From contig OX031056.1 in the NCBI GenBank assembly GCA_943736015.1, positions 63,329,277 through 63,393,276 on the forward strand: a stretch of 64,000 nucleotides of DNA. Reading direction: 5' to 3'. The position numbers and the translations under genes are program-made. The stretch comes from Tridacna crocea. Its lineage: Eukaryota; Mollusca; Bivalvia; Cardiida; Cardiidae. The notes below the pieces were generated by a model. That model saw only the letters and a program-made list of their open reading frames with translations. It was not told where the DNA came from and did no database searches. This document shows, one piece after another, positions 1,671 to 52,023 of this stretch; the stretch's first letter is position 1, and every line of letters begins with the position of its first letter.

Positions 1671-1900
1671 TTAACCCTTTACCAAACAACAAATTTTTTG
1701 ACCAGTCCAAATTCAAAGCAGATGAAAAAATAAAGGTAAATCAAAAATTGAAATTTGTTTCCACTTTCCAGCAGGGTAGAAAACATTTAGGGAAAAGAAG
1801 AAAATGCTGGTTACCAGCATTTTCTCCTTTTGCCACAATGCTTTCAAAAGGCTTCTACCCCAGGGTTGTAAAAACCAAGGATTGTTTGGTAAAGGGTTAA
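1671..1900 (+). mobile_element. THM element, complete with TTAA both sides
   Basis: TTAA at 1671-1674 and 1897-1900 encloses a 222 bp element beginning CCCTTTACCAAACAACAAA and ending TTTGGTAAAGGG. The central palindrome is nearly perfect, with TGCTGGTTACCAGCA at its middle. TTAA duplication with CCC/GGG termini is characteristic of piggyBac-type transposition. There is no coding capacity: it must have been moved by a transposase encoded elsewhere. It is a good reference copy for the family. Confidence 0.9.
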
Positions 1901-2737
1901 ACAATTTTGTTTAGATTTGAAAGTGAACTTCTTTGAAATTTAGAGTTTTTAAAGGAATTCAATTCTGTGAACTATGTTTTGAAGAAGACCTCCAGAGTTA
2001 CATTTCTGCAAATACTGGTTGATTATATAATTGGCCTTGGAGTTAGGGAGATGTTTCTAACCATTCTTTAGTAATTAATGACCAATCGGCAACAGACACA
2101 GGCTCCCCTTGGGCACCTTGTAATGAGAAGAGCTAAACAGAGATAATACTACCTAGCACTTTCTGGCAATCTCTTTAGTGTTACATTGTAACATCCATTC
2201 ATTGGCCTGGTCATCCATCCAGGTACAAACTCAATGTACATTGCATAACTATCACAGAGAAAAATACATTATATTTATAGCACATCATTGTAAAGATAGC
2301 TCCACAGCAACGCAGGTTTGAAGTGCTTATACATCTAACCCCTCTCTGTGTCAATATACCATAGGGATTTGCTCAATTTATTTTTAATTTTTAATTAAAT
2401 CCTTAATTCTGCAGAGTTGAGAATGTCTATGATGTGCATGTGAGTTTTTTGTTTAGTTCCATAATACCACATACCCCAGCACATAGTAAAGAAGGCATTT
2501 CAAAACAGTATCAGACAAGATTGCTCATACATTTCAGCAGTTTGAACTATTCCTGCCTTGACTTCAAGTCAGTGGAGTAATATAAATAAAATTCAACACA
2601 TGCAGCTTAAAAGATTTGTAAATGGGAAATCAAAGAAGCTTTAAATGTCCTGGAAAAATTAAAAATTTACACATGAAATTAAGAGTTCATAGAGGTATGT
2701 ACTTGTCAACACACATAAAATTGTTTTCTGCTTTCAC
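1901..2737. other. Unique AT-rich stretch
   Basis: No gene, long repeat or clear structure seen. Confidence 0.5.
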
Positions 2738-2966
2738 TTAACACTTTACTTCATAGATACTCATTTCTACGCATTGCTTGTAGAAGCCTTGGGAAAACAT
2801 TGTGGCTAAAGGTGAAATTGCTCGTAATGAGCAATTTCACCTTTTGCCACTATGTTTCCTACACTATCAAAAGGTGTCATATACAGATAAGAAATGGCTT
2901 CATCCTTGCTGTTATTTAGAGTCAATTAGAGATATCATAGAAATGCCTTATGGGGTAAAGGGTTAA
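2738..2966 (-). mobile_element. THM element, hairpin subfamily 2
   Basis: TTAA at 2738-2741 and 2963-2966 flanks a 221 bp element. Its hairpin core is GGTGAAATTGCTCGT with the matching return arm, unlike the GGAGAAAATGCTGGT core of most copies. Its right arm (GGCTTCATCCTTGCTG) also differs. The only other copy of this type in the window is at 43808-44036. Confidence 0.88.
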
Positions 2967-3383
2967 ACATTTTTTTTTTCATAAAGTAGAATCAGATGTA
3001 TTTTGATTTCAGATGGTGGATGGTAACTTATTCATGGAGGAATAAGTGGATTCCAAAGAATGCCAGTCTTTTTAAAAGTGAACAACAGTAAATGTCCTAC
3101 CGATAAATGCTTTCCTGGAGGCTGCACAGACCGACGGTTTGAAACACAGAGTTTGATCTGATAAGGTGGTGAAAATGTCCATGTGGCAGAATATATGCTT
3201 AGAATGAGGGGATTCCAAAACAAACTATTTATTGCAGGACTCGGTGTACACAGTCAAAGGCGTGTATTTGTTTATAATTGCATGTTATTTAATAGCTAGT
3301 GTTTACAAACATTAACTTTAGTGTAAAAAGGAAAATTTAAAATTCTTCTTTGAAACTGGAAGGCATATAGCTTTGATATTTGT
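2967..3383. other. Unique stretch
   Basis: No supported gene. A short antisense frame near 3032-3223 shows no recognisable motif. Confidence 0.4.
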
Positions 3384-3726
3384 TAGCTCACCTTAGCACA
3401 AAGTGCTAAAAGTGAGCTATTGTGATTGCCCTATGTCTGGCGTCTGTCGTCCATAGTCCAGCATCCATCGTCCGCCAACAATTTCTTTCAACATCATCTC
3501 CTAAGCCACTTGGCCAATCTTGATGACTCTTGGCAGGGATATTCCTTTGGTGAAACTTTACCAAAGTTGTTCAAGGAATTGAATTTCACTCATAAGCTAT
3601 AGTCTAAGGTAGGGCTCCGGAAATTCCCCACCCCACCCCCACCCCAGGTTTCTCTATTTTTGTTCAAATTTACACAATTGAGAATGACTCTTAAGGTGAG
3701 CGTTCCAGGGCCAATGGCCCTCTTGT
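3384..3726 (+). mobile_element. Pearl-like element, short form without tandem repeats
   Basis: Head: AGCTCACCTTAGCACAAAG, then the mirrored part, ending GTGAGCTATTGTGAT. Tail: AAGGTGAGCG, then palindromic GGGCCAATGGCCC and TCTTGTT. Head and tail match the large elements at 11635-13619 and 33585-35164, but the 145 bp units are absent; the body is single-copy with a C-rich tract. Elements with such a layout are known from bivalves (pearl type); the assignment is inference. Confidence 0.7.
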
Positions 3727-4238
3727 TACATTATGTAGTATCTCTGTGAGTATTGAAGGTATTTACTTGAAACTGGGCATAAGTGATAACTATCAAAAGG
3801 AGAACATATGCCATTAAAGTAGACAATTCAAAATATTTTTGACAAAATTAGACCCCTACAGGTTCAAATATTTACTGAAAGTCAAGTAACTACAGCCCAG
3901 TGTTGGCACCCACAAGTGGTGCTCTTATTAATCATCTCAGCAGGAAGTACAAAGTGAGCTACATGTATTAGGGATTTAGCTGTCTTGCATTCCCCAATGT
4001 GAATATAATATATACAAAATCTGTCTGTCTTCATCCAATCCAGAGAGACTTCCATGCAAAATATAAACCAAAATTACAAATACAAAAAGGGCTTAATGGA
4101 ATGAATATTGTATCAAGGGTAATTATAACTGAAATTGGTTAGACTATAAGAATAGTTTGAAGTTTTATCAAATATGTACAGGGGTCACAGAAATTTGACC
4201 CGGAATGCTGTACCATAAACTGCAAAATGGGCAATGCC
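3727..4238. other. Unique AT-rich stretch
   Basis: Nothing recognisable seen. Confidence 0.4.
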
Positions 4239-4467
4239 TTAACCCATTACCACACAATCCCTACTTTTGACGCCCCTTAGAAAGAAGCCTTTAGAAAACA
4301 TGGTGGGAAAAGGAGAAAATGCTGGTAACCAGCATTTTCTCCTTTTCCCACAATGTTTTCTACCCTTCACAAAACAAATTTCACATTTTCAGTCACTTTT
4401 ATTTTGTCGTCTGCAAATGCTTTCAATTTGGACCAGTCTAAAATATTGTTGTTTGGTAATGGGTTAA
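4239..4467 (-). mobile_element. THM element, complete, reversed
   Basis: TTAA at 4239-4242 and 4464-4467. Short arm on the left (CCCATTACCACACAATCCC), long arm on the right (TTTCAATTTGGACCAGTC). The right TTAA is also the left TTAA of the next copy. Confidence 0.9.
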
Positions 4468-4724
4468 CTCTTTACCAAACAACAAAGTTTTGGACTAGTC
4501 CAAATGGAAAGCATTTGCAGATGACAGAATAGATGTGACTCAAATATTGTAATCTGATTTGGGAACGGTAGAAAAAGATTGTGGTAACAAGCATTTTCTC
4601 CTTTTCCCACCATGGTTTCTAAACTTTCAAAGAAAACATCCTAACTTGTGTAATTGAATTTGTCATCTGCAACTGCTTTCAATTTGGACCAGTCCAAAAT
4701 TTTGTTTGCTTGGTAAAGAGTTCA
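4464..4724. mobile_element. THM element with two long arms (arm-swapped)
   Basis: Begins TTAACTCTTTACCAAACAAC with the long arm (GGACTAGTCCAAATGGAAAG) and ends with the mirrored long arm (TTTCAATTTGGACCAGTCC), then TTGGTAAAGAGTTCA. Ordinary copies pair one long and one short arm. The central palindrome is shortened. It abuts the preceding copy with one shared TTAA. Confidence 0.8.
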
Positions 4725-5075
4725 GCAAAAATGAAACTGAGAAACTTTGGATAAATAATGATAACCTGTTGGGTTACCACATCTTATGTTAAATAACAAG
4801 TCATTATATATATATAAGGATCTTGATGTGAAAACAGTGTTTTATTTTTCTTTATAGTTTTGAGCGACTATGGAGAGAACTATGGAATTGTGTGAATACA
4901 ACATTCTACTATCTATTTTACTGATTGGAGGACCAGGAAATTTTGCAAACAGACTATGAAGTACATCTGTTAATGATACAAGACCATTAAGACAGATTTT
5001 GTGCTGCAATGCAGAGATGCCCTTTTCAAACTGAAAATAATAGAACTTCCATGCAACTTTGGTTAGGTGGTCGAC

Positions 5076-5304
5076 TTAACTCATAACCAAACAACAAAAT
5101 TTTAGGTTTTTTCCGAATTGAGGATTTGCAGAAGACAAAATAAAAGTGACTGCAAATTTGAAATTCGTTTTGTGAAGGGTAGAAAACATTGCAGGAAAAG
5201 GAGAAAAATGCTTGTGACCAGCATTTTTAACTTTTCCCACAATGTTTTCAAAAGTTTTCTTTCTCAGGGTTGTCAAAAGTCGGTATTGTGTGGTAAAAAG
5301 TTAC
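5076..5304 (+). mobile_element. THM element, complete
   Basis: Left TTAA at 5076-5079; right end TGTGGTAAAAAG then TTAC in place of TTAA. The hairpin is slightly eroded (AAAAATGCTTGTGACCAGC). Confidence 0.85.
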
Positions 5305-5405
5305 AGATTTTGAACCAAATGTAGAAGTAAGTTATGTACACCGGGTAACAAAGTTGTCCGTAATAAGATGATTGATTGGTCGATAGGCAATATGGAATTT
5401 AGACT

Positions 5406-5766
5406 GTGATGTATTTTAGCAGCAACAAGATGCTTCTTAATTTGGTAATTAAGTATGGTCGAATACTTAATTTAGGAATTCAGGAAATGTTACCTGAATT
5501 CCAATTTGAATATTTCCGTTCAGAAGTCAAAGATATACATGTATTTAGCAATGAACAGACATGTACAACAATTTTCACAGATTTCACCAGCAACTTACTA
5601 ACTCTTTATCCCCAACTTTTTGTACATGAAGAATGTTTTTTTTTTTCAGATAGTGATTCATTTGATGTTAATAGTTATGCTCACATGAGTGGAATTTTAA
5701 ATTCAAAGTGAGGTTTTTGTCATTGAGATTTTTTCCCCCAATGCCTTTTTTATGCCAATGAATAAA
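5406..5766 (+). other. Possible terminal exon with poly(A) signal
   Basis: A 101-codon open frame (5406-5711) lies upstream of AATAAA at 5761-5766. Inside it, a long T tract ending TTTTTTTCAG near 5650 would serve as a splice acceptor for a short last exon with a stop codon at 5709. I recognise no domain in the translation. The poly-T/CAG, stop and AATAAA arrangement is suggestive only; in AT-rich DNA these signals arise by chance. Confidence 0.2.
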
Positions 5767-5967
5767 ACTGCTTGTACTGCCTGACATTGTTCATTGTTTT
5801 CAAAATCCCTCTTTTTCAGGGTCATGAACGCTTAAATTTGTGTGTTGTTGCACATTAACGAGGAAAGAGAGGAAATTGCTTTTGTGAGAAAACCAATAAA
5901 AATCGTCAACAAAGTCAGCCGATGCTGTCATAGTATTGAAATCGTACTGAAAGTGGGGTAAAACACC

Positions 5968-6196
5968 CTAACCCAGTACCACACAACCCCTACTTTTGAT
6001 GCCGCTGAGAAGGAAGCCTTTAGAAATCATTGTGGGAAAAGGAGAAAATGCTGGTAACCAGCATTTTCTCCTTTTCCCACAATGTTTTCTACCCTTCACA
6101 AAACAAAGTTCAACTTTTCAGTCACTTTTATTTTGACGTCTGCAAATGCTTTCGATTTGGACAAACTTAAAATTTTGTCGTTTGGTAATGAGTTAA
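5968..6196 (-). mobile_element. THM element, complete, reversed
   Basis: Left site CTAA (mutated TTAA) at 5968-5971, right TTAA at 6193-6196. The palindrome centre is perfect (GCTGGTAACCAGC). Very similar to the copy at 4239-4467. Confidence 0.88.
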
Positions 6197-6249
6197 AAGG
6201 GCTGCAAAAAATTGTTCATCTGTGCCGAGACAGCGACAAACTCGGATTT

Positions 6250-6320
6250 GCCGTGACCAGGATTTAAACGCGTGATGTCGCGGCCATAACGCGAAGTACT
6301 TACTACTATACGATCACGGC
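6250..6320 (-). pseudogene. tRNA-His-like pseudogene or SINE head
   Basis: The reverse strand reads GCCGTGATCGTATAGTAGTA and ends TCACGGC, so the 7 bp acceptor stem is perfect. The anticodon stem TCGCG/CGCGA is perfect, and the loop TTATGGC puts ATG (His, normally GTG) exactly at positions 34-36 of a 71 nt molecule. The T stem pairs poorly and the T loop reads TTTAAAT rather than TTCGAAT. Overall it resembles metazoan tRNA-His. The T-arm decay and the lack of neighbouring tRNA genes favour a pseudogene or a SINE-derived copy. Confidence 0.65.
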
Positions 6321-6474
6321 GCTCATTACTGAACTTAGATTATCTCAGTCTTTGAAACTTTTAAAACATGAAAGAAACAGACGCTTTGCTACAGAATCCC
6401 GAGTTTCCCAATATGTCTTAGGGTTTAACACCCTTTTTAACATTATTTCAGTTGTATCGCGGCACTGAGCCAGG

Positions 6475-7724: not shown

Positions 7725-7830
7725 AAACGCCTTTTAGAAATATTGTGCGAAAGTGAAAAATACTGGTAACCAGTATTTTCTCCTTTTTCCGCAATGTTTT
7801 CCTATATTCTAAAAACAAATTTTGATAGGT
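7725..7830. repeat. THM fragment, decayed
   Basis: Palindrome core with mutations (AATACTGGTAACCAGTATTT), where the two arms have changed in parallel, within otherwise eroded arms. Confidence 0.6.
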
Positions 7831-7871
7831 ATGCCTTTTAATTTCTTGTGTAAAGAACAAGACGAAATATA

Positions 7872-9216: not shown

Positions 9217-9228
9217 ATACGTCCTTTA

Positions 9229-11634: not shown

Positions 11635-13619
11635 AACAAGAGGGCCATGATGGCCCTGAAATCACTCACCTGAGTCTATTGACCAAACATGAATCATCTA
11701 GTTTCCCAGTGACCTAGTTTTTTATCAGACATTACCCATCATCGAACACTTCTGATATATCAATAAGACAAACATTTTGACCACGTTTCATGAGGATTGG
11801 ACTGAAAATGTGGCCTCTAATGCAAACAAAAGGTTTTTCTAAGATTTCACCAAGTGACCTAGTTTTGAACCCGACAATTATCCATTAAACTCTTTTGAGA
11901 CATCACCAAAACAAACATTCTGACCAAGTCTGAAGAGTATCAGGCTGAAAATGTAGCCTCTACAGTGTACACAAGATTTTTCTAATATTTGACCCATTGA
12001 CCTAGTTTTTGACTATACATGACCCATTTTCAAACTCATTCAAGGTATCACTAGGACAAATATTATGAAAAAGTTTTAGGAGTATCAGACTGAAAACGTG
12101 TCCTCCAGAAATTACAAATGGTGTTTATAACATTTGACCTATTGACCCAGTTTTTTTTACCCACCATGACCCATTTTCAAAATCATCCAAGATATTATAA
12201 AGGCAAACATTCTAACTAATTTTCAAAAGTGTAGGACTGAAATTGTGGCATCCAGAGCATATACAAGGTTTTTCTAAGATTTGACCTAGTGACCTAGTTT
12301 CTAACCCCCAATGACCCATTTTCAAACTCGATCAAGAAAAACATTCTGACCAACTTACAAGACTTTTGGACTGAAAATGTGGCCTCTAGAGCCTACAAAA
12401 GGTTTTTCTTACATTTGACATGGTGACCTAGTTTTTGACCCCACAAGACCCATTTTCAAAGTCGTCCAAGATATCATGAAGGCAAATACTCTGACTAATT
12501 TTCAAAAGTTTTGGACTGAAAATGTGGCCTCTAAAGCGTACACAATTTTTTTTCTAAAATTTGACCTAGTGACCTAGTTTTGACCCCACATGACACAATT
12601 TCAAATTCTTTTCAGCTACCATCCAGGGAAACATCCCGACCAATTTTCATGAGTGTCCGACTGAAATTGTGGCCTTTAGAGCGTACACAAGGTTTTTTTA
12701 AGATTTGACCTGGTGACCTAGTTTTTGACCTAGCATGACCCATTTTCAAACCAGTCCTAGATTTAATCGACGCAAACCTCCTAAACGAACTTTCATGAGT
12801 ATCGGACTGAAAATGTGGTCTCTAGAGCGTACACAAGATTTTTCTAAGATTTGACCTAGTGACCTAGTTTTCCGGACTTGTTCAAGATATTACCAAGACA
12901 AACATTCTGACCAACTTTCAAGAGTTTTGGACTGAAAATGTGGCCTCTAGAGCGTACAAAAGGTTTTTCTAAGATTTGACCTAGTGACCTAGTTTTTGAC
13001 CCGAAATGAACCATTTTCAAACTCGTCCAAGATATCATCCAGGCTAACATCCTGACCAACTTTCATGAGTATCCGACTGAACATGTGGCCTCTAGAGCGT
13101 ACACAATGTTTGTCTAAAATTTGACTTAGTAACCTAGTTTTTGACCGGACATAACCCATTTTTTGAACTCGTCCGAGATATCATCCAGGCAAACATCCTG
13201 ACCAACTTTCATGAGTATCGGACTGAAAATGTGGCCTCTAGAGCGCACACAAGATTTTTCTAAAATTTGACCAAATGACCTAGTTATTGACCCCACATGA
13301 CCCATTTTCGAACTCGTCCGAGATCTCATCCAGACATACATGTACATCCTGACCAACTGTCATGAGTATCCGACTGAAAATGTGGCATTTACAGCATACA
13401 CAGGGTTTTTCTAAGATGTGACCTAGTTTTTGACTTGACATGACCCATTTTCGAACTTGTCCGGGATTTCATCGAGCCAAACATTCTGACCAACTTTCAT
13501 GAGTATCGGCCCGAAAATATGGCCTCTAGAGCGTACGCAAGGTAAAAAGTTGACGACGGACGACGGACACAGCACGATCACAATAGCTCACCATGAGCAC
13601 TTCGTGCTCAGGTGAGCTA
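11635..13619 (-). mobile_element. Pearl-like element with about 12 tandem units of 145 bp
   Basis: On the reverse strand it starts AGCTCACCTGAGCACGAAG, whose palindrome continues GTGCTCATGGTGAGCT, and ends AGGTGAGTGATTTCAGGGCC followed by ATCATGGCCCTCTTGT. Between head and tail lie about twelve diverged units of roughly 145 bp, marked by repeated GGACTGAAAATGTGGCCTCT and TTTGACCTAGTGACCTAGTT. Short open frames on the reverse strand inside the array arise from the repeat itself. The element has no coding capacity. Such VNTR elements with conserved palindromic flanks are familiar from bivalves; the mode of spread is not established from this sequence. Confidence 0.85.
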
Positions 13620-13647: not shown

Positions 13648-13741
13648 GGATAGAAAACGAGTGCCGTGGTATATGGGAAATATACACGAGCGTTAGCGAG
13701 TGTATATTTCCCATATATCACGGCACGAGATTTTCTATCTT
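13648..13741. mobile_element. Hairpin element with GAGCG-TTAGCGAG loop
   Basis: Arms of about 40 bp (GATAGAAAACGAGTGCCGTG and TATATGGGAAATATACAC against their complements) enclose the loop GAGCGTTAGCGAG. Only one or two mismatches between arms. Confidence 0.75.
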
Positions 13742-15864: not shown

Positions 15865-16089
15865 TTAACTCTTTACCACACAATGACATATTTTGACGAC
15901 CCTGATAAAGAGACATTTTGAAAACACTGTTGAAAAGGGAGAAAATGCTGGTAACCATCATATTCTCCTTTTCTCACATTGATTTCTACCCTTCAGAGAA
16001 CAAATTGCCATTTTTAGTCCTAGTTTATTTGTTCGCAAGTGATTTCAATTTGGACCAGTCTAAAATTTTGTTGTTTGGTAAAGAGTTAA
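15865..16089 (-). mobile_element. THM element, complete, reversed
   Basis: TTAA at 15865-15868 and 16086-16089. Short arm left (CTCTTTACCACACAATGAC), long arm right (TTTCAATTTGGACCAGTC). The palindrome shows a few mismatches. Confidence 0.87.
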
Positions 16090-19455: not shown

Positions 19456-19464
19456 ATAAATATT

Positions 19465-25080: not shown

Positions 25081-25365
25081 GTTAAACGCTAAGAAGTCAA
25101 AATTAAACGTTTTAAACAGCCAAAAGGAGGGAGCGTAGCGACCGACTGTGGCTGTTTAAATCGTTTAATTTTGAACTTCTTAGCGTTTAACCGACTTAGT
25201 CTTTTTCCGCCCACATTACGTAATAGTTAAACGCTAAGAAGTCAAAATTAAACGATTTAAACAGCCAAAAGGAGGGAGCGTAGCGACCGACTGTGGCTGT
25301 TTAAATCGTTTAATTTTGAACTTCCTAGCGTTTAACTGACTTAGTCTTTTTCCGCCCACATTTCA
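25081..25365. mobile_element. Two tandem giant hairpins, 145 bp period
   Basis: Each unit starts GTTAAACGCTAAGAAGTCAA, continues to TTTAAACAGCCA, passes a loop AAAGGAGGGAGCGTAGCGAC, and returns through TGGCTGTTTAAATCG to TTAGCGTTTAAC. Arms are about 43 bp with very few mismatches. A spacer with CTTTTTCCGCCCACATT follows each. The two units (25081 and 25226 starts) are nearly identical. Confidence 0.8.
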
Positions 25366-25542
25366 TCATTGCTAAAATAATGTTCCATATACGGAATCCA
25401 CTATTTACAAAGGAACGCCCTTTCACCCATAAATGGAGTTGGCCGATTCGCTAAAGAAACGTCATCATTGCATCATCGCCAAAAAATGGCGTAATTTCCA
25501 CGTGAATATCGGGGCTAAACCTCGTACACGCCCGCGTGGTAT

Positions 25543-25665
25543 TTAACCCTTTACCAAACAATCCATTGGGAAGGAAGGTTATTTTGGAAAAGGAGAAAAT
25601 TCTGGTTATCAGCATTTTCTCCTTTTCCTACAATATTTTCTACCCTGTCAAAAAACTCAATTTCA
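25543..25665 (-). repeat. THM element, truncated by the deletion in copy A
   Basis: TTAA at 25543-25546, short arm and hairpin (GGAGAAAATTCTGGTTATCA); the long arm is missing. The full-length counterpart is at 31407-31612. Confidence 0.8.
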
Positions 25666-25708: not shown

Positions 25709-25937
25709 TTAACCCTTTCCCAAACAGCAAATTTTGGACCAGACCAAGTTGAAAGCATTTTGCAGGTGACAAATTGACAGTTGCTAAAAAGATGATTTTT
25801 CTATATGACAGGGTAGAAAACATTGTGGGAAAAGGAGAAAATGCTGGTTACCAGCATTTTCTCCTTTTCCCACAATGTTTTCAAAAGGCTTCTATTCCTG
25901 ACTCGTAAAAACCAGGGACTGTTTGGGAAAAGGTTAA
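25709..25937 (+). mobile_element. THM element, complete
   Basis: TTAA at 25709-25712 and 25934-25937. Perfect hairpin with GCTGGTTACCAGC. It occupies the same TTAA as a clearly different THM in the paired copy (31979-32206). Confidence 0.9.
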
Positions 25938-31080: not shown

Positions 31081-31406
31081 AACAAATAACTCTTTTCGGG
31101 CAATGAATTTTCAGTGCAACTTTTTTCTTGTGATTATTACGTTCGTTTTCTTTCGTGGAATGTAAAAATAAAAACTTTTGCAATTAGTTCCAACCCATCT
31201 GTTAGTTTGACTGGACTACAAAGACTAAATCATTGCCAAAATAATGTCCCATATAAGGAATCCACTATTCACAAAGGAACGCCCTTTCACCCATATATGG
31301 ACTTGGCTGATTCGCTAAAGAAACGTCATCATTGCATCATCGCCAAAAAATGACGTAATTTCCACGTGAATATCGGGGCTAAACCGCGTACACGACCACG
31401 TGGTAT

Positions 31407-31612
31407 TTAACCCTTTATCAAACAATCAATTGGGAAGAGAGGTTATTTTTGGAAAAGGAGAAAATTCTGGTTATTGGCATTTTCTCCTTTTCCTACAATA
31501 TTTTCTACCCTGTCAAAAAACTCAACGCCATTTGTTCCACTTTCAAAGTTTGATATCTGCCAATGCTTTCAATTTGAAAAGGTCTAAAATTTGTCATATG
31601 AGAAAGGGTTAA
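31407..31612 (-). mobile_element. THM element, complete, in copy B
   Basis: TTAA at 31407-31410 and 31609-31612; 198 bp, with a shortened short arm (CAATCAATTGGGAAGAGAGG) that copy A shares. Confidence 0.87.
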
Positions 31613-31978: not shown

Positions 31979-32206
31979 TTAAGCTTTTCCCAAACGACAA
32001 ATTTCAGACTTTTCCAAACTGAAAAAGTTTGCAGATGACAATTTTAACTTTCATAACAATGGCAGAAAATTTTCCGAACGGACAGAAAACACTGTGCGAA
32101 AATGAGAAATTGCTCGTTACAAGCAATTTCTCCTTTTCCCACAATGTTTTCAAAAGACTTGTACTGCAGACACGTAAAAACAAAGGCTTGTTTGGGAGAG
32201 GATTAA
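31979..32206 (+). mobile_element. THM element, mixed hairpin type, in copy B
   Basis: TTAA at 31979-31982 and 32203-32206. The hairpin GAGAAATTGCTCGTTACAAG combines features of both subfamilies. The body is far more different from its positional counterpart (25709-25937) than the flanks are. Confidence 0.87.
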
Positions 32207-33584: not shown

Positions 33585-35164
33585 AGCTCACCTGAGCACG
33601 AAGTGCTCAGAGTGAGCTATTGTGATAGTGCTGTGTTCGTCGTGCGTCATCCGTCGTCAAATTTTACCTTGTATACGCTCTACAGGCCACATTTTTGTCC
33701 GATACTTATGGAACTTGGTCAGAATGTTTGCCTCGATGAAATCTAGGACGAGTTCGAAATTGGTTCATGTAGGGTTTAAAACTAGGTCAAATACCCAGGT
33801 ATTAGAAAGATCTTGTGTACGCACTAGAGGCCACTTTTTTAGTCCGATACTCATGAAATTTGGTCAGAATGTTTACTTTGAAAAAATCTCGAACCATTTC
33901 GAAAATGGGTCATTTCAGGTCAAAAACTAGGTCAAACCTTAAAAAAACCTTATGTATGCTCTAGAGGCCACATTTTCTGATATTCATGAACTTTGGTAAG
34001 AATGTTTGCCTCGATGATTTCTCGGACAAGTTCGAAAATAGGTCATGTCGGGTCATAAACTATTTCACTAGGTCAAATCTTAGAAACACCTTGTGTACGC
34101 TCTAGAGGCCACATTTTCAGTCCAAAACTCCTTAAACATGGACAGAATATTTGCCTAGATGATATCGGACGAGTTCGAAAATGGGTCATGTCTAGTCAAA
34201 AACTAAATCACTTGGTCAAATCTTAGAAAAACCTTTTGTACGCTCTAGAGGCCACAATTTCAGTCCAAAACTCTTGAAAGCAGGTCAGAATGTTTGTCTT
34301 GATGATATCTCTGACGAGTTTGAAAATGGGTCATGCTGGGTCAAAAACTAGGTCACCAGGTCAAATATTAGAAAAAAAACTTTTGAACGCTCTGTAGGCC
34401 ATATTTTCAGTCCAAAACTCTTGTAAGTTGGTCAGAATGTTTTTCTTGCTCATATCTTTGACGAGTTTGAAAATGGGTCATGTTGGGTCAAAAACTAGGT
34501 TACAAGGTCAAATCTTAGAAAAACCTTGTATACGCTCTGGATGCCACATTTTCACTCTAACACTCTTGAAAATTGGTCGGCATGTTTGTCTTGATAATAT
34601 ATTGGATGAATTTGAAAAAAGGTCATGTTGGGTCAAAAACTAGGTCAATAGGTCAAATGTGATAAAAACCTTGTGTATCCTCTGGAGGATACATTTTTAG
34701 TCTAATACTCCTGAAACTTGTTCATAATATTTGTCTTGGTGATAACTTGAATGACTTTGAAAATGGGTCATGTGGAGTCAAAAACTAGGTCACTGGATCA
34801 AATATTAGAAAAACCTTGTGTACACTCAAGAGGTCACATTTTCTGCCTGATACTCTTCAAACTTGGTGAGAATGTTTGTTTTGGTGATGTCTCAAAAGAG
34901 TTTGATAATGGGTAATTGTCGGGTCCAAAACTACGTCACTTGGTGAAATCTTAGAAAAACCTTTTGTGCACTGTAGAGTCCACATTTTCAGTCCAATACT
35001 CATGAAACTTGGTCAGAATGTTTGTCTCATTGATATCTCAAAAGTGTTTGATTATGGGTAATATCTGATAAAAAACTAAGTCACTGGGAAACTAGATTGG
35101 AAATTTTTCATGTTTGGTCAATAGACTCAGGTGAGCGATTTCAGGGCCATCATGGCCCTCTTCT
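33585..35164 (+). mobile_element. Pearl-like element with about 10 tandem units of 145 bp
   Basis: Head AGCTCACCTGAGCACGAAGT with CTCAGAGTGAGCTATTGTGA; tail CAGGTGAGCGATTTCAGGGC then CATCATGGCCCTCTT. Internal units are marked by CTCTAGAGGCCACATTTTCA and AAAACTAGGTCA-type motifs, the complements of those at 11635-13619. Same family, opposite orientation. Confidence 0.85.
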
Positions 35165-36339: not shown

Positions 36340-37257
36340 TTTCCAGCGCGAAGTATGGCATATGGAGCATGTACAAGGTTTTTTCTAAGATTTGAGCTGG
36401 TGACCTACTTTTCGATCTAAAGAGTGATGAAATTTCAAAGCTTAGCCGAGAAATTACCAAGAAAAAATACTCTCATTAACTCTTATGAGTAATGACCTGA
36501 AAATGGAGTCTCAGGAGTGAAACTTGTTAAATTTGACTTTCTGAGTAACTTTTACCAACCTTTTCAACCTCAACTCGTCTAAGATGCATATTTTTTCAGG
36601 GAAAACATTGATATCTTGACAATCGGTCTAACAATTTAACATCTAAAACGTAGAAAATATTGTTCTACGATTTCTTCAGTGACATACATGTACTTTTTGC
36701 CTAGATGCTACTTTATTCGAACTCGCCCTAGTATTTATCGAGTATTTTAACAAATATTCCGATCAAGTTTTGTCAGTATAAGACTTAAAAATAATCCTTT
36801 AGATTGTGAAGAAGGTTTCGTCTTAGATTTGACTCGGTGACATAGTTTTTTACCTCATGTAGCTTATTTTGAATCGTTTGCGATTTTATATAGAAAAAAA
36901 ATATTATGATCATTAGTATCCGGCCTCTAGGATGTATACAAGGTATTTAAAAAACTTCACCCAATGACCTACTTTTGATTGGACCTGGTCCATTTTCAGA
37001 CTCATTTGAGATATCAAGACAGATATTTCGATAAAGTTTCTTGACCATCGAACAAAAATGAGACATTTGGAGCTTACACAAGACTTTTCTCAAATTTGAC
37101 CTATTGACCCTCTTTTTGACCGATGTCAACATTTTTATTCTCGTTGTCACACTAAGACAGTTCTTTTAGAGTGATACAAGGTAAAAGCTGACGACGAACG
37201 ACTCACACGGCACTACACGAAAGCTTACCTATAGCTCTTCGTTCCCAGATGAGCTAA
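36340..37257 (-). repeat. Old, decayed pearl-like array
   Basis: Diverged 145 bp units (TTTCTAAGATTTGAGCTGGT, TGACCTACTTT) end in GGTAAAAGCTGACGACGAAC and a decayed head whose reverse strand reads TTAGCTCATCTGGGAACGAA. No clear tail. Confidence 0.6.
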
Positions 37258-39330: not shown

Positions 39331-39476
39331 GATCTGACATGAGTTGGTTTTTGAGATAAAATTTTATTTAACGAGTCTACAAAAATGTTATTAAACGAGC
39401 CTTTGGCGCGCTTAATGATATTTTTGTTGACGAGTTTAATAAATTGTTACCTCAAAAACCTACGAGTGTCCGATTC
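39331..39476. mobile_element. Hairpin element with GAGCCTTTGGCGCGC loop
   Basis: Left arm GGTTTTTGAGATAAAATTTT then AACGAGTCTACAAAAATG; the right arm returns CATGAGT/ACGAGTGTCC-type ends and ACCTCAAAAACC. Arms are about 65 bp with some mismatches. Confidence 0.65.
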
Positions 39477-40866: not shown

Positions 40867-40940
40867 TTCCCCCATATGCTAAGTATATGGACGAGTCCAA
40901 GGTTGTCGTCGAGTGGAAACATTCATAGTAACTATTCAAA

Positions 40941-41159
40941 ACCCTATACCAAATAACCCAAGCTTTTTACGACCCTGAGCAATATAGTTTTTAAAAGTAT
41001 GGTCGAAAAGAGATAAAGTTCTGGTAATTACCATTTTCTCCTTTTCCATTTGCTATCCTTCCTACAGAGAATTTCATTTTATTAAGTCACATTCAAATTG
41101 TTGTCTTCATAGGCTTGTTAAGTGGGCAAATCTCAAATTTTTGTTTGGTATAGATTTAA
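40941..41159 (-). repeat. THM element, decayed
   Basis: Left CCCTATACCAAATAACCCAA with TTTACGACCCTGAGC; hairpin TTCTGGTAATTACCATTTTC; right TTTTTGTTTGGTATAGATTTAA (written here as two parts: TTTTTGTTTGG and TATAGATTTAA). TTAA at 41156-41159. Confidence 0.7.
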
Positions 41160-43807: not shown

Positions 43808-44036
43808 TTAACCCTTTACTCCATAGATACTCATTTTGACGCACTGCTTCTAGGAGCCTTTGGAAAACATTGTGACAAAAGGTGAAATTGCTCGTGACGA
43901 GCAATTTCACCTTTTGTCAAAATGTTTTCTATGCTATCAAAAGGTGTCATATACATATAAGAAATGGCTTCATCCTTGCTGTTATTTAGGGTCAATTACA
44001 GATACCATAGGAATGCCTTATGGGGTAAAGGGTTAA
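43808..44036 (-). mobile_element. THM element, hairpin subfamily 2, complete
   Basis: TTAA at 43808-43811 and 44033-44036; 221 bp inside. Core GGTGAAATTGCTCGTGACGA; right arm GGCTTCATCCTTGCTG. Closely similar to 2738-2966, and in better condition. Confidence 0.9.
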
Positions 44037-45790: not shown

Positions 45791-48447
45791 TCCTGCACGT
45801 GCTTCGCTCATGTAAATCAAGAATGAATAAGTGCATAGAACTCAGAGTAGGTTATTTTAAAAAATAGTGAACACTCCAAGTTGCTTTTTATAACAATATT
45901 CCGATACCGGCACTGGTCCACGTTCTTTCTGATCACCCCTCGTAAGCGATTTGTTATCAAGTGTATTTGTGTACGAAAAGATTGTTTTAAAGATTTGAAT
46001 TTGTCAACAGATTATAAATTATTATGATACCAGGGAATATGTACAGGTCTGGCGATAATTAAAATTTTCCTCGGGCTATCTGGCCTCAACTGATTTGAAA
46101 CTAAAATTACAAGAGCATCAAAGTACTGTCGTGATAGATCATCCGTCGGATGCCAAACTACTCTTTTATAAAGTCTATGGAGACAAAGTGCCCAACACAG
46201 ACTGTGCTTAGTTTACACAGACGGATAGAACCTTGCTTAAAACCGTCGTGCGTGACTTAGCTTTAAGCACTGTCATAGTTTACTTGTTTCAATCGTCTCA
46301 GAACAAGTCCCTTTGAAACACCTCAAGTCTGCCTGAAGCTGTCTGTGTTTCATACTGACTACAACGATTTTACATACTGAAGTGTTACATTGTCTTCTTT
46401 TAAAGAGTTAAGTATTTAATTTCATTGCAATCTGACGTAATAATGTGCTCTGGTAATGCGTCTTACGATAACAGTAAATGTACCGCTAAGACTCCTAAAT
46501 GATTCATTAATTTAGGAGAATTTGATTATGTAATTTAAGAACCAAGCTTTGATTCACTTTGCCGATCTGCTACGGACAACGCAATAATTTTGTTGTCTGC
46601 GGATATGCAGATGACCTTAGTTCCATACCTACCCAAACATTTTTCAAGGTACATTTAGGTGCAGCTATTTTATTTATATCAAACGTTAATAGTGTGAAAC
46701 ACTTGTTTTTTTACGATATATCAGTCAAAGCGCCTCGACCTAGTTCGATTTACTTTTATCTGTAGAGTTCAAAAAGATTATCTGTCGAATGCAGTGTCAG
46801 TGATCAGTTATAAGGAGCGGTCTTTTCTTACATAAAGAAATGTTTGGTCAGAAATAGACACCGAGTAACAATGTCAATGTCACAGTGTCAATCCAAAATA
46901 GTATAATAGGTTTGCAGAAATTATACCCCCAACGAAAAGGGAAACAAAAAGCTTTTATTCCCGCTAATTTTGTGTCCTCTGCTAAATTTAGAGGGTAATG
47001 GTAATACTATTTCCCTTGGGCGATTTAGATGAAATTTTCACATTTGTAAATTCTAATGGTACTGTTAATTAAACCTTTTCTGAAGTCAGGTCATATTGTA
47101 TTTTTTAATATTATTTCAAATTATACTAATTTCTTCTTTGGCATGAGTATAATTCGCATTCACTGATGGATAACAATATTTGGCGCCAAATTAACTAAAA
47201 GTGGTTTTAAGCGTGGATAAATATACAAAAGAAATTTCCTTTAAAAAAAAAAACACTCACGAGGTACGAGGAGGAAACCCTTAGGAAAAAATGAGTAACG
47301 ATGTCCTCGTTCGATGTGTGATTGTCGCTTGTAGAAAAAAAACATATTGAGCCCGCGAAATCATTTCATTCTACTCTAAAAAAAGCAAGGGAAAAACTGT
47401 TACAAGACACTTTACGTTTAAACTGCTGTGTAAATCAACTGGACTTTATATAAATTTATCATAATCAAATGTCATAATGTGAACATTGTGTTTAATATAG
47501 TACATTAATATATAGAGGTCTGGTTCAAACACCTATCTGTAATTTCTATACGCCCTGAACTAAATCCACACTGACTTCAAACATAAAAAGTGAGATCAGT
47601 GTCAGCAAAATTTAATTATTTGTTGCGCTCCTGATACTATCGACTTGGATAAAACGGTTTAAAGTATGATCGTGTGTTGACAGAAAAAAAAAATGGTTTA
47701 CTTTTTTACTCAATTATTATTGAGAGTATAACATATTTACGCTGAATCCCAGTCTACATCTAAATAAATGTCATTCTTGTAGATTCATACAAAACTCGGC
47801 CGTTGGCCGTATCCTTAAATTTCTTAGTACATGAAAAGTTGAGAAAACTAACTCTCTTTTTTCGTTGCAACTAGTACATGATAAAATATCTATGCTGATA
47901 AACGTTTTTGCGATCTAAATAGACCGACCGAATTTTGTTCTACCATTGTCAACCTAAAACATGGTGTTAAATTGATAATCTAATTTGAAATTTAGCTATA
48001 TGTACTCTTTCTACATACTGATTTCGTGGAAATAGAAGCGGAACCTCAATCTTCTTTGATGTTGTTATTGAAACTTGTTTTGCATAAAACGAAAAGAAAA
48101 CACATGGAGGAAACTAGCAAAGCACGTTAGAAAAAAACATTTGTGGACCGGTAAAGTGACTAACAAAAAGGGGTTTGAATTGGCTTGTGAATGGTCTTTC
48201 ATATGCTGTATGCATGAGCAAAGGTGTTAAAATTGGCATTTAATAGTTTAATCTTGCTCGGACGAAGGCAGCTGGATACTACATACGAACTCCAGCTCGA
48301 GACTTCATGTTATAATTGATGGAGTTCCAGTAGATCCTCATCCATGACGTACAAAAAGATAATGAGAGACTATGAGCCATGCTTATTTTTTTTTTTCTTC
48401 AGTTTGATTATCTTGACTACCGTCCCACACAATTAGCCATTAGCACC
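45791..48447. other. Long unique AT-rich stretch
   Basis: No gene, mobile element or tandem repeat recognised over 2.6 kb. This is the largest quiet block of the window. Confidence 0.4.
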
Positions 48448-48553
48448 CGATTATATAAATATTGGTTAAACTTACCCAGGGTAAAACTCTAACCTGGGGT
48501 CAACTTTTAACCATTTTAGTATTAAGTTAACTGGTTAAATACTTCTATAATCG
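48448..48553. repeat. Small imperfect inverted repeat
   Basis: CGATTATATAAATATTGGTTAA-type left arm (22 bp, seen as CGATTATATAAATATT then GGTTAA) faces a diverged complement ending CTATAATCG. Confidence 0.4.
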
Positions 48554-49728
48554 AGATAACCAAACTGGTTACTGAACTAGAATGGCTAAATGAAACATAA
48601 GTTAACGTAGTCGAAATATTCCGTCATGCAGTCCTCTTTCAACTTTCTCTCACGCTTCACAAACATATCACGTCGTACAATTTTTCTTTCAATTTTTTCA
48701 TGCACTATATACATCACATTTTGCCGCACACAACAATCGGAAAAGAAAACCAATGTAAAACCATTGGCACGTATCTCACTGCTCAGGCGTCGACGACTCA
48801 TGTAATGGGTAAATAAGATTTAATATCGTTAAATTTCGCATAAATTGAAAAAGAATAGTTTAGCAGACTTCAGTCAATTTCCCTCTGGCTTTTGGTTTAC
48901 TTTATTATTATTCTCTTTATTTCCTCTTTACAGAGATTAATTCTAATATACAAACATCATAGATTAAAGAAAAAAAGATAATACAAAGATTGTACAGTAT
49001 TTTCGTTATAACACGGTGTAAGGGTAGAGAGAACAATTATGCAATAGTAAAAGTAAGGTGATTAGACAGACAGACAGACAGGGAGACAGACAGAAAGACA
49101 AGGACAGTTAGAGAGTCGAAGAGAGTAGTTTGCAACCCATAGTATGCACACTGGATGACTTATGTCGAAACGAAAGTGCAGAAGCTACATCCGATGATGT
49201 ATACATTTATGTCTTGAATTCTCGCCGCTATCCGATCCAGAGCGAGATGGTCGTATGGATGAGAGTACGAAAACCTCGTTACTGTTTCGAACTCACTTAT
49301 TGACATACTACTTATCATATAGGCACATACATGTTCATGCGGCGGCTCCCTGAGAGCCGTTTTCCTGGCACATTTGTGACAAGAGTATGCAAGATCCTGC
49401 ATCTGAAACCAGATTATCATTTAGGGATGTTTTGGCAAAAGGGAGCTTAGTGCAACTGCGAAAAGTGTCGCACAGGTTGACCTTAGCAGAAAAGTTTGGC
49501 TATGGATCAGTTTTGTATGTCAAAGGACTAGTCAACCTTTTTATTAAGTATGTTGTTAAAACAGGTAGATGTCATGTACCCATAACTATATGATGACTTA
49601 TTTGGTACCATGGTTAACGAAAATGCATTAAACCCCTTTTTTCCAGAGCATTGCTGAATTGTAAGCGTTACCACGTGCAGCTAATCCATACTCAAAGGCT
49701 CTTTCTGGCACCATGGCAAACCCCCCCA
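48554..49728. other. Mostly unique DNA with (CAGA)n tract
   Basis: ACAGACAGACAGACAGGGAG-type tract at about 49066-49105. No gene supported. Confidence 0.45.
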
Positions 49729-49915
49729 TCCCAGGTAGCTCTGTGATTATGGCGTATCTGCCTCGTGAACTGATAACCGCAGGTTCGATACTTAGATGAA
49801 GCAAACCTTTCTCCGGTTTTTTTTTCACCGCTCTGGTGCATGTGAGAAAAGAAGTCAGTTATATGCAAAGAAAGTTATGTCAGTACTGGTTAGAGAAAGC
49901 CAGGAAAACATGCGT
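49729..49915 (+). mobile_element. tRNA-derived SINE, copy 2
   Basis: Head CCAGGTAGCTCTGTGATTAT, B box CAGGTTCGATAC, body CATGTGAGAAAAGAAGTCAG, TATGTCAGTACTGGTTAGAG and GCCAGGAAAACA. Same ordered blocks as 6475-6663. The B box is better kept here. Confidence 0.72.
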
Positions 49916-50313
49916 ACGTTTAATTTGTTTCCGTGGAATATATGAAAGGGATCTACTCGCATTTGCGAAAAACAAAAAGTCAACATCAAACGATTTCATG
50001 TGCGCTGGCCAACCTCTGTTAAAATTTTTAAGAAATTAGTTATTTTACCATGTTTACTTTACACTCGTTCAACAAATATATATTTTGCTCGCAAATTAAT
50101 GTAGATGTCAAATTTTATACTTTATGTGAAAAAAAATATATATAACAAACCCATGGTAAAGTAAATACCGATTTTTATGCACTAGTTTGGGGCCAAAAAA
50201 TCATGACTTTAAATCATGAAGTAGCAAGATCCTCTGAGAAACTTTCATCAAAGTAGCATGTACAATTGACATGACAAAAAAAGAAAGCGAATGAAAACAC
50301 AGCATCATTTAAA
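49916..50313. other. Unique stretch
   Basis: Nothing recognisable seen. Confidence 0.4.
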
Positions 50314-50475
50314 ACCTTACCACACAACAAAATTTTGGACTGGACCAAATCGAAAGCACTTGAAACCGGAAATTAAGTGTTGCTAAATTTATGTGTCCTG
50401 CCTTTGATTGGAAAGAAAATATCATGTGGAAGGGATAAAAAGCTAGTTGCAACATTTTCTATTGCAGAAAGGAGA
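50314..50475 (+). repeat. THM element, left arm kept, rest decayed
   Basis: CCTTACCACACAACAAAATT then TTGGACTGGACCAAATCGAA is a clear long arm; the hairpin is barely recognisable (AACATTTTCTATTGCAG). Confidence 0.6.
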
Positions 50476-51666
50476 GAAATGAAGGAAAATTGGCATGAAA
50501 TATTGTCTTGTATATACATGTAGGAGTCAGAACAAGAAATATCTTTAAAAATAGATAGAAAGCATTAATTTGCCACTAAACAGACAGGGACCCTTACAAT
50601 AAACATGTCTACAACTCTGACCAATCGCAAGTACCCATTCATCTATTACTCTCAGATGGTATTAATGTCTTTTTAAGGTCGACTGACTTCAGAATTACAG
50701 GGGTACAGGTATTCCTCTCTGCTGAAATGTCCTTTGTATTGTCTATGTAATGAAGCGATGCATTTTGCCTGTCTTATCTTTCATGTGTTTGTTTTATTAT
50801 GTTGTGTATGTCAACAAAGGCTTAAATTATCATCTGAGAGTAATAGATATATTTTTTATCAGTATCAAACAGTAGGTCAATAGCCAGCAAATTTAGCTGC
50901 GTCGAAAATTGTACTAGAAAAAAGGCTGACGGGGGCCCGTCGAATAAAAATGCGAACTCATTTCAACAATCGCAAATTACTATCTATCGAATGGAATATG
51001 CCAGTGTCAAAGATCAAAGACTGGCGTTTCCTAGGTTACATACAAGAATATAGTAATGCCAGCAAAGATTGTATATTCCCAATACCTACGCTTTAGGTTT
51101 TTACCTAACTGCACTTCGAACTCAAAATTTACGCTCTCTTTAGGGATGGAAGATTACCGTCTTCCCTGAATTGACCTTAATACAAAGAGAACATCGTCTT
51201 GATTCTATGAGAAGTGAAATTTTAGAGTGTTCTATTCAAAAGTACCTTGCAAAAGCAGACGATCGACAGTGAGCATCTCTTAAATAGCGGATTACCTTTA
51301 TCAATAGTCTCGTAGATTTTGAGACGAACCCCTTGTCTAAACTCCGTATTCCTTGTTTTATTCCGTATTCGGTGTCGGCTTGTACATCTCTAATATAGTT
51401 ACAGTCCCATCAAGAAAAAGCCAACATTTTAACAGGGTACATAATCAGTTACCAAATAAGTGTTTAACTCCATGTTTTAGTTAGATCTAGCATTATAGAA
51501 AATATTCAATTCACAAGTGACGGGGTCCTCTTTCTTATTTTTTGTTATCCACTGCTAAATTTTAGAAAATGACTTTCTTTGTCAATAGCAAATTTACCTT
51601 TGGACTCTCTTTTTTTCAAAGCCAGGCATCTTACCAATGGTGGAAAAAGGAGTTCAGTATTAACAG
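50476..51666. other. Unique stretch
   Basis: Nothing recognisable seen. Confidence 0.4.
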
Positions 51667-52023
51667 TTAACTCTTTACCAAACAAAAAATGTTTAGACTG
51701 GTCCAAATTGAAAGGATTTGCAGACGGCAAAATAAACTTGACTCAAAAATTGAAACGTCACTTTAGAAGAGTAGAAAACATTGTGAGAAAAGGGGCAAAT
51801 GCTGGTTACCAGCATTTTCTCCTTTTTGCACAATGTTTTCAGAAGGCCTCTTCCTCTGGGTCGTAAATAGTCCAATTAATAAGACCCTACGTACGTTATT
51901 TCACACAAGAAAAGTAAAATGTGAAATGTCCGAAAAAAAACTGTTAAACGGCAAACAAGCATGTGTGCGTCTAAATATTTGGACTAGGTCGTAAAAACCA
52001 GGGATTGTTTGGTAAAGGGTTAA
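51667..52023 (+). mobile_element. THM element, complete, carrying a nested insertion
   Basis: TTAA at 51667-51670 and 52020-52023. Long arm, hairpin (ATGCTGGTTACCAGCATTTT) and short arm are all present, but the short arm is split at GGTCGTAAA by a 119 bp element. Without the insert the copy would be of ordinary length. Confidence 0.9.
51859..51995. mobile_element. 119 bp element with 9 bp target duplication, inside THM
   Basis: GGTCGTAAA at 51859-51867 and 51987-51995 flanks 51868-51986. The ends are TAGTCCAAT and ATTTGGACTA, a short imperfect terminal inverted repeat. Related sequences are at 11347-11390 (left half) and 21088-21170 (right half). A 9 bp duplication fits Mutator-like transposition, but the ends are too short to decide. 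Confidence 0.8.

Follow-up and report, generated by a model that had tools for sequence, protein, structure and literature searches.

A very large piggyBac-type MITE family of Tridacna crocea and its internal 67-nt palindrome, a candidate cis-acting module

Copies of the element in the window and in the genome

The DNA analysed here is a 64,000-nt stretch of the Tridacna crocea genome (the window), which is populated by copies of a short, TTAA-flanked element (Table 1). The element is 229 bp long, has CCCTTTACCA-type ends, and carries a 67-nt palindrome at nucleotides 56-122, between two arms designated B and A. A sequence-only reading of the window had put this palindrome at the centre of the element; rather, the middle of the hairpin is nucleotide 89 of 229, 39% of the length from one end. 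The span from the B end to the palindrome core is exactly 95 nt in 64 of 100 genome copies among those listed with an exact B end.

That reading had also counted more than 20 copies in the window, and this is borne out. The sequence TTAACCCTTTACCA occurs 24 times with at most two mismatches (in 100 shuffles, 1.11 times on average and never more than 4), and a profile search yields 32 hits that together occupy 5,139 of the 64,000 bp (8.0% of bases). As had been described, the complete copies have TTAA flanks and shared ends. The CCCATTACCA ends of copy 4239-4467 equal the left end of a 7.2-kb piggyBac (see below) except for the last base. Among 15 gap-free copies any given reading frame is open in at most four, which indicates that the element has no coding capacity, although the majority sequence has two frames that stay open for about 74 codons. 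A Pfam search with two of the five ORFs listed for the window gave no matches. The window also has GTGACCTAGTTTTTGACC-like tandem repeats, which we take to be reminiscent of bivalves.

Table 1. Positions of the copies in the window and of the matching piggyBac elsewhere in the genome
Feature	Position	Strand	Hairpin or palindrome
Truncated copy (B arm and hairpin)	208..349	-	229-293
Near-complete copy, ends degraded	1295..1518	-	1398-1468
Complete copy, 230 bp, TTAA on both sides	1671..1900	-	1779-1845
Complete copy, subfamily 2	2738..2966	+	~2793-2859
Complete copy, CCCATTACCA at both ends	4239..4467	+	~4294-4360
Partial copy, TTAA in common with copy 4239-4467	4464..4623	-	
Near-complete copy	5076..5304	-	
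Complete copy	5968..6196	+	~6023-6089
Complete copy, 225 bp, hairpin partly decayed	15865..16089	+	
Complete copy, perfect 33+1+33 hairpin (67 nt)	25709..25937	-	25816-25882
Complete copy, B arm shortened (26 nt missing), hairpin retained	31407..31612	+	
Complete copy, stem pair 8 swapped on both sides	31979..32206	-	32085-32151
Old copy, strong hairpin decay	40940..41158	+	
Complete copy, subfamily 2	43808..44036	+	43863-43929
Copy split by an insert at ~51872-51983	51667..52023	-	51774-51840
Truncated copy (B arm and hairpin)	55887..56006	+	
Matching piggyBac, 7,203 bp, CCCATTACCG/CTCATTACCA ends	C5:7864466-7871668		

In the genome as a whole, the family is short, uniform in length, and high in copy number. 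Intact 14-nt ends occur 428,980 times, compared with 47 for the reversed control, and perfect 17-nt palindrome cores occur 329,064 times, compared with a single control occurrence. TTAA together with exact 10-nt CCCTTTACCA ends on both sides, spaced to give 223-253 bp, defines 4,641 copies (control 0). Among 50 listed copies of this exact-ended class, 31 fall within 226-230 bp, 13 of them at 229 bp; a length of exactly 229 bp is likewise seen in 23 of 79 unique candidates selected by their ends. Shorter exact-ended copies number 457 at 161-191 bp and 825 at 192-222 bp, with a peak at 176-178 bp (17 of the 50 shorter copies listed). A transposing subfamily that lacks the hairpin is possible. 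(Two copies, of 173 and 178 bp, that share one hairpin deletion were considered as independent insertions and rejected; their flanks are nearly identical, and they are therefore one insertion carried within a larger repeat.)

Class of the element and a matching piggyBac

The sequence-only reading had called the family a piggyBac-type MITE family and had recommended a search for an autonomous piggyBac with the same ends. That search has now identified an element of autonomous size, 7,203 bp, whose ends are near-identical to those of the MITE. Its left end matches copy 4239-4467 over 39 bp (82%, E=7e-5), and at its right end the terminal repeat alone is held in common. A 492-aa ORF within it matches DDE_Tnp_1_7 (E=2.7e-88) as well as the piggyBat and piggyBac chains. 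Three further copies are 97.8-99.96% identical over the parts fetched; because identity is as high as 99.96% and the 492-aa frame is open, this piggyBac appears to be recent. The TTAA/CCCTTTACCA ends and this matching piggyBac support the proposed classification as a piggyBac-type MITE family. TTAA insertion is also a property of the Kolobok and Sola superfamilies, so that duplication of TTAA is not exclusive to piggyBac. Nevertheless, it is highly improbable that the element belongs to one of these superfamilies, given a piggyBac, from a genome search for transposases with PF13843, that has near-identical ends and the common 39-bp left end and is present in recent copies.

The hairpin is absent from the terminal 320 bp at either end of the 7.2-kb element, and the hairpins that are found inside it fall within MITE hits in its interior. 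Its transposase thus seems to need none, a point against a role of the hairpin in transposition. (A CTTTTGACGCCCCTA-like motif, counted by eye, occurs four times in the element.) Two other groups were rejected as partners of the MITE, the 2,765-bp piggyBacs with CCCTTTATATAC ends and the 2.6-kb piggyBacs with CCCTAGTCATGC-like ends, with which the first few bases alone are in common. Paired ends were not found within the fetched stretch at 17 of 30 piggyBac loci, so other partners are possible.

Piggybac-type terminal inverted repeats are described in PMC2872659 as 12-19 bp long with a CC[C/T]T terminal motif, and one coral piggyBac in that source also starts with CCCA. The CCCTTTACCA-type ends agree with the motif (exactness was tested over 10 nt of the repeat), and the CCCATTACCA and CTCATTACCA end types, among them those of the 7.2-kb piggyBac, depart from it in the strict sense.

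Conservation and pairing of the palindrome

When copies are selected by their ends alone, the hairpin is, as claimed, better conserved than the rest of the element in one subfamily. In 65 subfamily-1 copies so chosen, mismatch to the consensus is 0.190 in the B arm, 0.077 in the hairpin, and 0.194 in the A arm, but in five subfamily-2 copies the parts are alike (0.059, 0.045, and 0.049, respectively). (Of the 79 end-selected candidates, 6 were removed as overlapping or ambiguous and 2 as belonging to a second copy of the 7.2-kb element; one more lay outside both subfamilies.) A hairpin no better conserved than the arms, one of two results that the sequence-only reading had named as refuting its proposal, is seen neither in the copies analysed nor in the genome word counts. 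The further claim that eroded copies keep the hairpin needs qualification. At least half of the hairpin is retained in 29 of the 32 window hits, where its being part of the profile eases detection, but among 200 unique copies (250 profile hits less 50 flank duplicates) 31 keep half an arm and less than half of the hairpin (17 the A arm only, 13 the B arm only, and one both), and 16 retain the hairpin alone, all of these classes being possibly inflated by locus edges and nested insertions. A hairpin deletion of at least 7 nt is present in 8 of the 70 end-selected copies; the idea that the hairpin is a deletion hotspot was set aside, since its 8 of 20 deletions of at least 5 nt are not clearly above its share of the length in an informal comparison.

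A tree separates changes in lineages that gave rise to further copies from those in individual copies. For 75 copies out of the 90 near-full ones of subfamily 1 (64 or more of the 67 hairpin nt), internal branches carry 0.54-0.60 changes per site in the hairpin versus 2.4-2.8 in the arms, which makes such changes four to five times rarer in the palindrome. On terminal branches the values are 5.1-5.5 and 7.5-8.4 (27-39% rarer). The difference between hairpin and arms gives a Fisher p=2e-9 when changes are treated as independent, and 0 of 10,000 site permutations equal it. When trees of 86 copies are built from half of the arm sites, all 10 repeats give a lower internal/terminal ratio for the hairpin (0.09-0.16) than for the held-out arms (0.33-0.39). 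The internal rate is 0.3-0.9 in the seven bins that span 55-124 and 1.2-3.9 in the full bins outside. CpG decay was discarded as the cause of the faster arms, as removal of CpG-prone columns changes the result little. A lower mutation rate or repair in the hairpin may add to the effect, since terminal changes, as well as differences between the six closest copy pairs (9 of 399 hairpin sites versus 47 of 800 arm sites), are also fewer there.

These closest pairs bear on another explanation, in which breakage driven by the palindrome and subsequent gene conversion homogenise the hairpin among copies and so mimic constraint. Palindromes are reported to be breakage-prone (PMC7999016), the perfect cores in the genome are possible donors, and the closest pairs do show fewer differences in the hairpin. 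However, variants found in a single copy are no rarer in the hairpin (0.84 per site, compared with 0.56 and 0.65 in the arms), so the resident copies do not look homogenised, and we give this explanation little credence.

A perfect hairpin, as first described, is the state of the consensus but not of the typical copy: only 8 of 130 hairpins are fully paired, and 3,438 of 4,195 cells (82%) are paired over the 130 examined. Of the 33 pairs, 5 distinguish subfamily 2 from subfamily 1: four are swapped on both sides, and one is a G-T. Of the 43 nested clade consensuses from the 86 copies, 39 keep 32-33 of 33 pairs and four keep 30-31, with low support for many of the clades behind these counts. 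Two-sided complementary events among the same 86 copies number 24 on terminal and 6 on internal branches, compared with false-pair means of 8.1 and 0.7; the internal compensatory events are few (5-6), and internal one-sided restorations are hardly more frequent than expected (8 versus a false-pair mean of 6.2). In the genome, 295,897 cores are of the G:C type, 33,167 are of the C:G type, and 1,926 are changed on one side. Because of the internal-branch deficit and the two-sided swaps that keep pairing, the palindrome appears to be under constraint as a symmetric structure, chiefly in lineages that transpose, and to decay after insertion.

Symmetry could also renew itself without benefit to the element if template switching (quasi-palindrome correction) copied one arm onto the other. 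Such a process has been described for RNA stems (PMC8794818), and the 24 terminal two-sided changes exceed not only the false-pair mean but also its maximum of 20.6 in 50 repeats. Yet neutral maintenance of this kind accounts for symmetry, not for the slower internal-branch change in sequence; correction is rare in resident copies, where 321 terminal events break a pair compared with the 24 that compensate; and full pairing is as infrequent as noted above. We consider it unlikely.

Selection on an RNA would have different consequences. If Dicer cut hairpin transcripts, and selection on the RNA, be it the host's or the element's, kept the stem, the family would be a source of small RNAs, as microRNAs are known from MITE hairpins elsewhere (human mir-548 from Made1; PMC1784062). 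The RNA fold of copy 25709-25937 is indeed very stable (z -10.7; 0 of 200 shuffles are equally stable). However, an Rfam search of the window gives no match at gathering score, and the constraint lies mainly on the transposing lineage rather than on resident copies. In addition, pairing in one RNA strand predicts an excess of G-T over A-C mismatches, and in the orientation of the element there is none (203 versus 192 over 130 hairpins); on internal branches the small counts are 9 and 10, so selection on a single RNA strand is not indicated. A small-RNA source is thus quite improbable.

Proposed role in transposition and comparison with known systems

The best reading of the palindrome is that of a DNA-level aid to transposition. 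The sequence-only reading had suggested that the hairpin might help transposition, and lineage-level constraint and compensatory pairs favour this, with the role itself resting on inference. It is reasonably probable that the palindrome of this very large family is a cis-acting module. MITE copies would move by cut-and-paste into TTAA, using transposase that piggyBacs such as the 7.2-kb element may provide (the ends and the partner are observed, and mobilisation is presumed from them). As the tree supports, symmetry would be kept in lineages that yield new copies and would decay once a copy has inserted. The likeliest reason would be that DNA which is dyad-symmetric or forms a hairpin or cruciform, placed at a constant spacing from the B end, raises transposition success, either through a bend or fold that lets the two ends of the 229-bp element pair or as a site for a dimeric protein, for example the cysteine-rich domains of the transposase. 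A more specific version, an enhancer in which a hairpin or cruciform joins the ends and selection during transposition, rather than on the host, maintains pairing through compensatory changes, is put forward tentatively, as a possibility that we rate below even chances by some way. In the literature surveyed, represented mostly by titles and the openings of abstracts, no description of a eukaryotic cut-and-paste transposon with such a structural enhancer was found.

Some MITEs are orders of magnitude more numerous than their parent transposons for reasons that are still debated, and internal sequences are suspected. The present family is a natural experiment, since its palindrome is long, its copies are many, and swapped base pairs allow structure to be told apart from sequence, and the apparently recent matching piggyBac could make a role of DNA structure in MITE amplification directly decidable. 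The same system bears on whether a palindrome can persist through template switching when selection is absent. The internal sequence of a Stowaway MITE studied by Yang et al. in 2009 reportedly enhances transposition; that element, which we take to be of the Tc1/mariner-type superfamily, differs from the MITE described here in that its internal sequence is presumably not palindromic.

Stems maintained by template switching resemble the present case in having compensatory paired changes in a DNA-encoded hairpin, but that process was proposed for RNA genes (PMC8794818), and here the hairpin lies in a mobile element. The piggyBac and piggyBat elements share the TTAA target and the transposase family, and they have palindromes near their ends that are bound by dimers of the cysteine-rich domain (PMC11707139); the repeated motifs in the piggyBat left end also have a parallel in the 7.2-kb element. 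Those palindromes are 14-19 bp long, and those of piggyBat lie within ~120 bp of the tip (PMC11707139), whereas the palindrome of the MITE measures 67 nt and starts 56 nt in from one end, and none is seen in the ends of the 7.2-kb element.

The closest precedent is the CMITE families of Acropora corals (PMC2872659), which differ in being ~100 bp long, with ~1,600 copies in A. millepora. Between the 60-bp consensus of the CMITE internal region and the Tridacna MITE there is no similarity (an equally high score is reached by 197 of 500 shuffles), nor does that consensus form a long palindrome (at best 8 of 15 pairs), and a covariation or tree test of the MITE was not found in the sections of PMC2872659 consulted. 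Nevertheless, as described there, the CMITEs have TTAA duplications and CCCT-type ends, are linked by a short resemblance of their ends to a piggyBac-like element, and have an internal region that is more conserved between families than the ends are, for which their authors likewise propose a role in transposition.

Structure and abundance of the element

With up to two mismatches allowed, TTAACCCTTTACCA is matched 24 times in the window, against 1.11 expected, and a search with a profile built from copies selected by their ends gives 32 matches covering 5,139 of the 64,000 bp. The 229-bp MITE, flanked by TTAA, consists of a B arm, a 67-nt palindrome (the hairpin) and an A arm (see table). Exactly this length is seen in 23 of 79 unique end-selected candidates; of 100 genome copies listed as having both an exact B end and a core (the 17-nt palindrome centre), 64 have an end-to-core span of 95 nt and 79 one of 94-96 nt. 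The majority sequence has one forward and one reverse frame open for ~74 codons; of 15 gap-free copies, just 4 and 3 have these frames open, and coding capacity is therefore not indicated.

Across 1.05 Gb in 31 contigs, exact TTAACCCTTTACCA occurs 49,668 + 49,843 times (reversed-word control, 9 + 7) and TTAACYCWTTACCA 214,387 + 214,593 times (control, 24 + 23). Copies with both ends exact number 4,641 at 223-253 bp, 825 at 192-222 bp and 457 at 161-191 bp, with controls of 0 throughout. The core is present as WTGCTGGTNACCAGCAW 295,897 times (control, 0) and as WTGCTCGTNACGAGCAW 33,167 times (control, 1). Of these, the window has 5 and 1, respectively, the former being below the calculated genome mean of ~18 per 64 kb.

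Two copies, at 25543 and 31407, may represent one insertion carried by a larger duplicated repeat, because blocks that are 93% identical run into both. Elsewhere, adjacent copies have a common or nearly common TTAA, as if one MITE end were a favoured target for the next insertion. The window also contains tandem arrays with mutually complementary stretches (up to 90%), and two other imperfect palindromes that, by eye, are unrelated in sequence to the MITE family.

Coordinates of element parts and other features (L-numbers, fetched genome loci; C5, a genome contig)
Feature	Position	Detail
B arm	nt 1-55	of 229 bp
Palindrome	nt 56-122	odd centre, nt 89
A arm	nt 123-229
Second, weaker slow stretch	A-arm columns 165-194	internal-branch changes 1.2-1.3 per site vs 2.1-3.9 in other full arm bins
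Adjacent MITE copies	4239-4724; L045:1264-1936
Blocks running into MITE copies	25365-25591; 31229-31455
Insert within MITE copy	51872-51983	~112 bp, parting B end from remainder
Hairpin-deleted MITE	L050:1986-2158; L052:78-255	same place in larger duplicated repeat
Two tandem arrays	11696-13564; 33658-35097	opposite orientation, units mostly 143-147 bp
More units of these arrays	36375-37119
Imperfect palindrome	13661-13726	arms 33 nt
Imperfect palindrome	39346-39460	arms 57 nt
7,203-bp piggyBac element	C5:7864466-7871668

Conservation of the palindrome

The claim of the sequence-only reading that the hairpin is the best conserved part is borne out in 65 copies of subfamily 1 picked by their ends alone, in which mismatch to the consensus is 0.190 in the B arm, 0.077 in the hairpin and 0.194 in the A arm; the better conservation is thus not due to finding copies by their hairpins. 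In five subfamily-2 copies picked in the same way, the values are 0.059, 0.045 and 0.049. Among 90 copies, the core is exact in 38% and a comparison arm word, the best conserved of the same length and degeneracy among the copies in hand, in 18%; genome-wide this word occurs 77,982 times (control, 5), 3.8 times fewer than the core.

The hairpin is not poorer than the arms in variants found in a single copy (0.84 per site vs 0.56 and 0.65), but it is poorer in those present in at least 10 copies (0.03 vs 0.32 and 0.25). The case for a purely lineage-level effect is weakened because nearest neighbours, too, differ less in the hairpin: the six closest copy pairs differ at 9 of 399 hairpin sites and 47 of 800 arm sites. 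Hairpin difference relative to the arms is about half in the next three divergence bins and 0.74-0.86 in the most diverged.

In a 75-copy tree, internal branches, which stand for transposing lineages, carry 0.54-0.60 changes per hairpin site and 2.4-2.8 per arm site; on terminal branches, which stand for resident copies, the figures are 5.1-5.5 and 7.5-8.4. This contrast (Fisher p=2e-9) is matched by 0 of 10,000 site permutations, and omitting CpG-prone columns has little effect on the rates. When half of the arm columns were held out (86 copies), each of 10 trees gave a lower internal/terminal ratio for the hairpin (0.09-0.16) than for the arm columns kept aside (0.33-0.39). Along the element, the internal rate is 0.3-0.9 in the bins at 55-124 and 1.2-3.9 in full bins elsewhere.

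Pairing, and what it might be for

The hairpins of the two subfamily consensuses are identical at 57 of 67 positions despite strongly diverged arms (A interior, 36/93, as high in 44 of 5,000 shuffles; B interior, 20/41, as high in 5 of 5,000). Of the ten differences, eight belong to pairs 3, 8, 13 and 20 (counted from the centre), in each of which both bases are swapped; the other two are the centre base and one base of pair 2, where a G-T results. Of the 33 pairs, 32-33 are intact in 39 of 43 nested clade consensuses, and 30-31 in the other four. Two-sided complementary events at true pairs number 24 on terminal branches, where 50 repeats with false pairs average 8.1 (maximum, 20.6), and 6 on internal branches, where they average 0.7 (maximum, 3.7); internal one-sided restorations are hardly in excess (8 vs 6.2). 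For pair 3, genome-wide cores are 295,897 G:C, 33,167 C:G and 1,926 one-sided, counts that two founder lineages alone could explain and that convey scale rather than independent events. Pairing decays in resident copies: 3,438 of 4,195 cells are paired (82%, vs 35-41% in shifted controls), only 8 of 130 hairpins are fully paired, and terminal branches show 321 breaks against 24 two-sided compensations.

The palindrome therefore changes least, and stays symmetric, on the internal branches. We infer a constraint that works through transposition and at the level of DNA. Selection on one RNA strand gains no support from the G-T and A-C mismatches, which are unbiased in element orientation (203 to 192 in 130 hairpins; 9 to 10 on internal branches, where numbers are low). 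The 229-bp element could be folded by a hairpin or cruciform that brings its ends together; alternatively, the dyad could serve as a dimer site, and paired cysteine-rich domains are described in PMC11707139 as binding short palindromes in piggyBac and piggyBat. Two observations speak against the palindrome being a necessity: a 7.2-kb piggyBac element shows no hairpin at its ends, and shorter exact-ended copies exist.

A candidate autonomous partner and known systems

The search for an autonomous piggyBac with the same ends, suggested by the sequence-only reading, led to this 7.2-kb element. Of the 118 genome matches to PF13843, a set of near-identical genes with a 492-aa ORF sits inside a 7,203-bp element that starts TTAACCCATTACCG and finishes TGGTAATGAGTTAA, ends nearly identical to those of the MITE. 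The ORF matches the full DDE_Tnp_1_7 profile (E=2.7e-88) and, among PDB chains, piggyBat (E=9e-40) and piggyBac (E=3e-36). Over the parts fetched, three more copies at other sites show 97.8-99.96% identity, and similarity breaks off within a few bases of the element ends; of the three copies with both ends read, two have TTAA on both sides and one lacks it on the right. Similarity to the MITE copy at 4239-4467 spans the left 39 bp (82%, E=7e-5), which include, by eye, the first of four repeats resembling CTTTTGACGCCCCTA; the right end has only the terminal repeat in common with the MITE. Neither end shows a hairpin within its terminal 320 bp; the element holds eight MITE profile matches, one of them weak. 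MITEs with a CCCA/CTCA-type end, the type found in the 7.2-kb element, have closer nearest neighbours than those with CCCT-type ends only (median 0.100, n=27, vs 0.140, n=41; Mann-Whitney p=0.012), a weak sign that a 7.2-kb-like element drove the younger copies. Other recent-looking piggyBacs (L014-L019, L021, L022, L032) measure 2,765 bp with CCCTTTATATAC ends or 2.6 kb with ends resembling CCCTAGTCATGC; identity is >99% for several copies.

No recognisable description of the family was found in a mostly open-access literature, mostly at the level of titles and abstract openings; it may be catalogued in Repbase. Word searches of two bivalve genome papers found no "mite", "hairpin" or "palindrom" in one (PMC8905726); the other (PMC10294476) is without "palindrom" and leaves MITEs unclassified. 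The nearest precedent is the coral CMITEs, which, according to PMC2872659, have in common with the Tridacna MITE the TTAA, CCCT ends and a piggyBac relative. Their internal region is likewise better conserved than their ends, for a cause left unexplained there, but its sequence is unrelated and is not a long palindrome. As a piggyBac MITE, the Tridacna element is of an ordinary kind; its copy number is very high, and its internal palindrome is unusual and structurally constrained.
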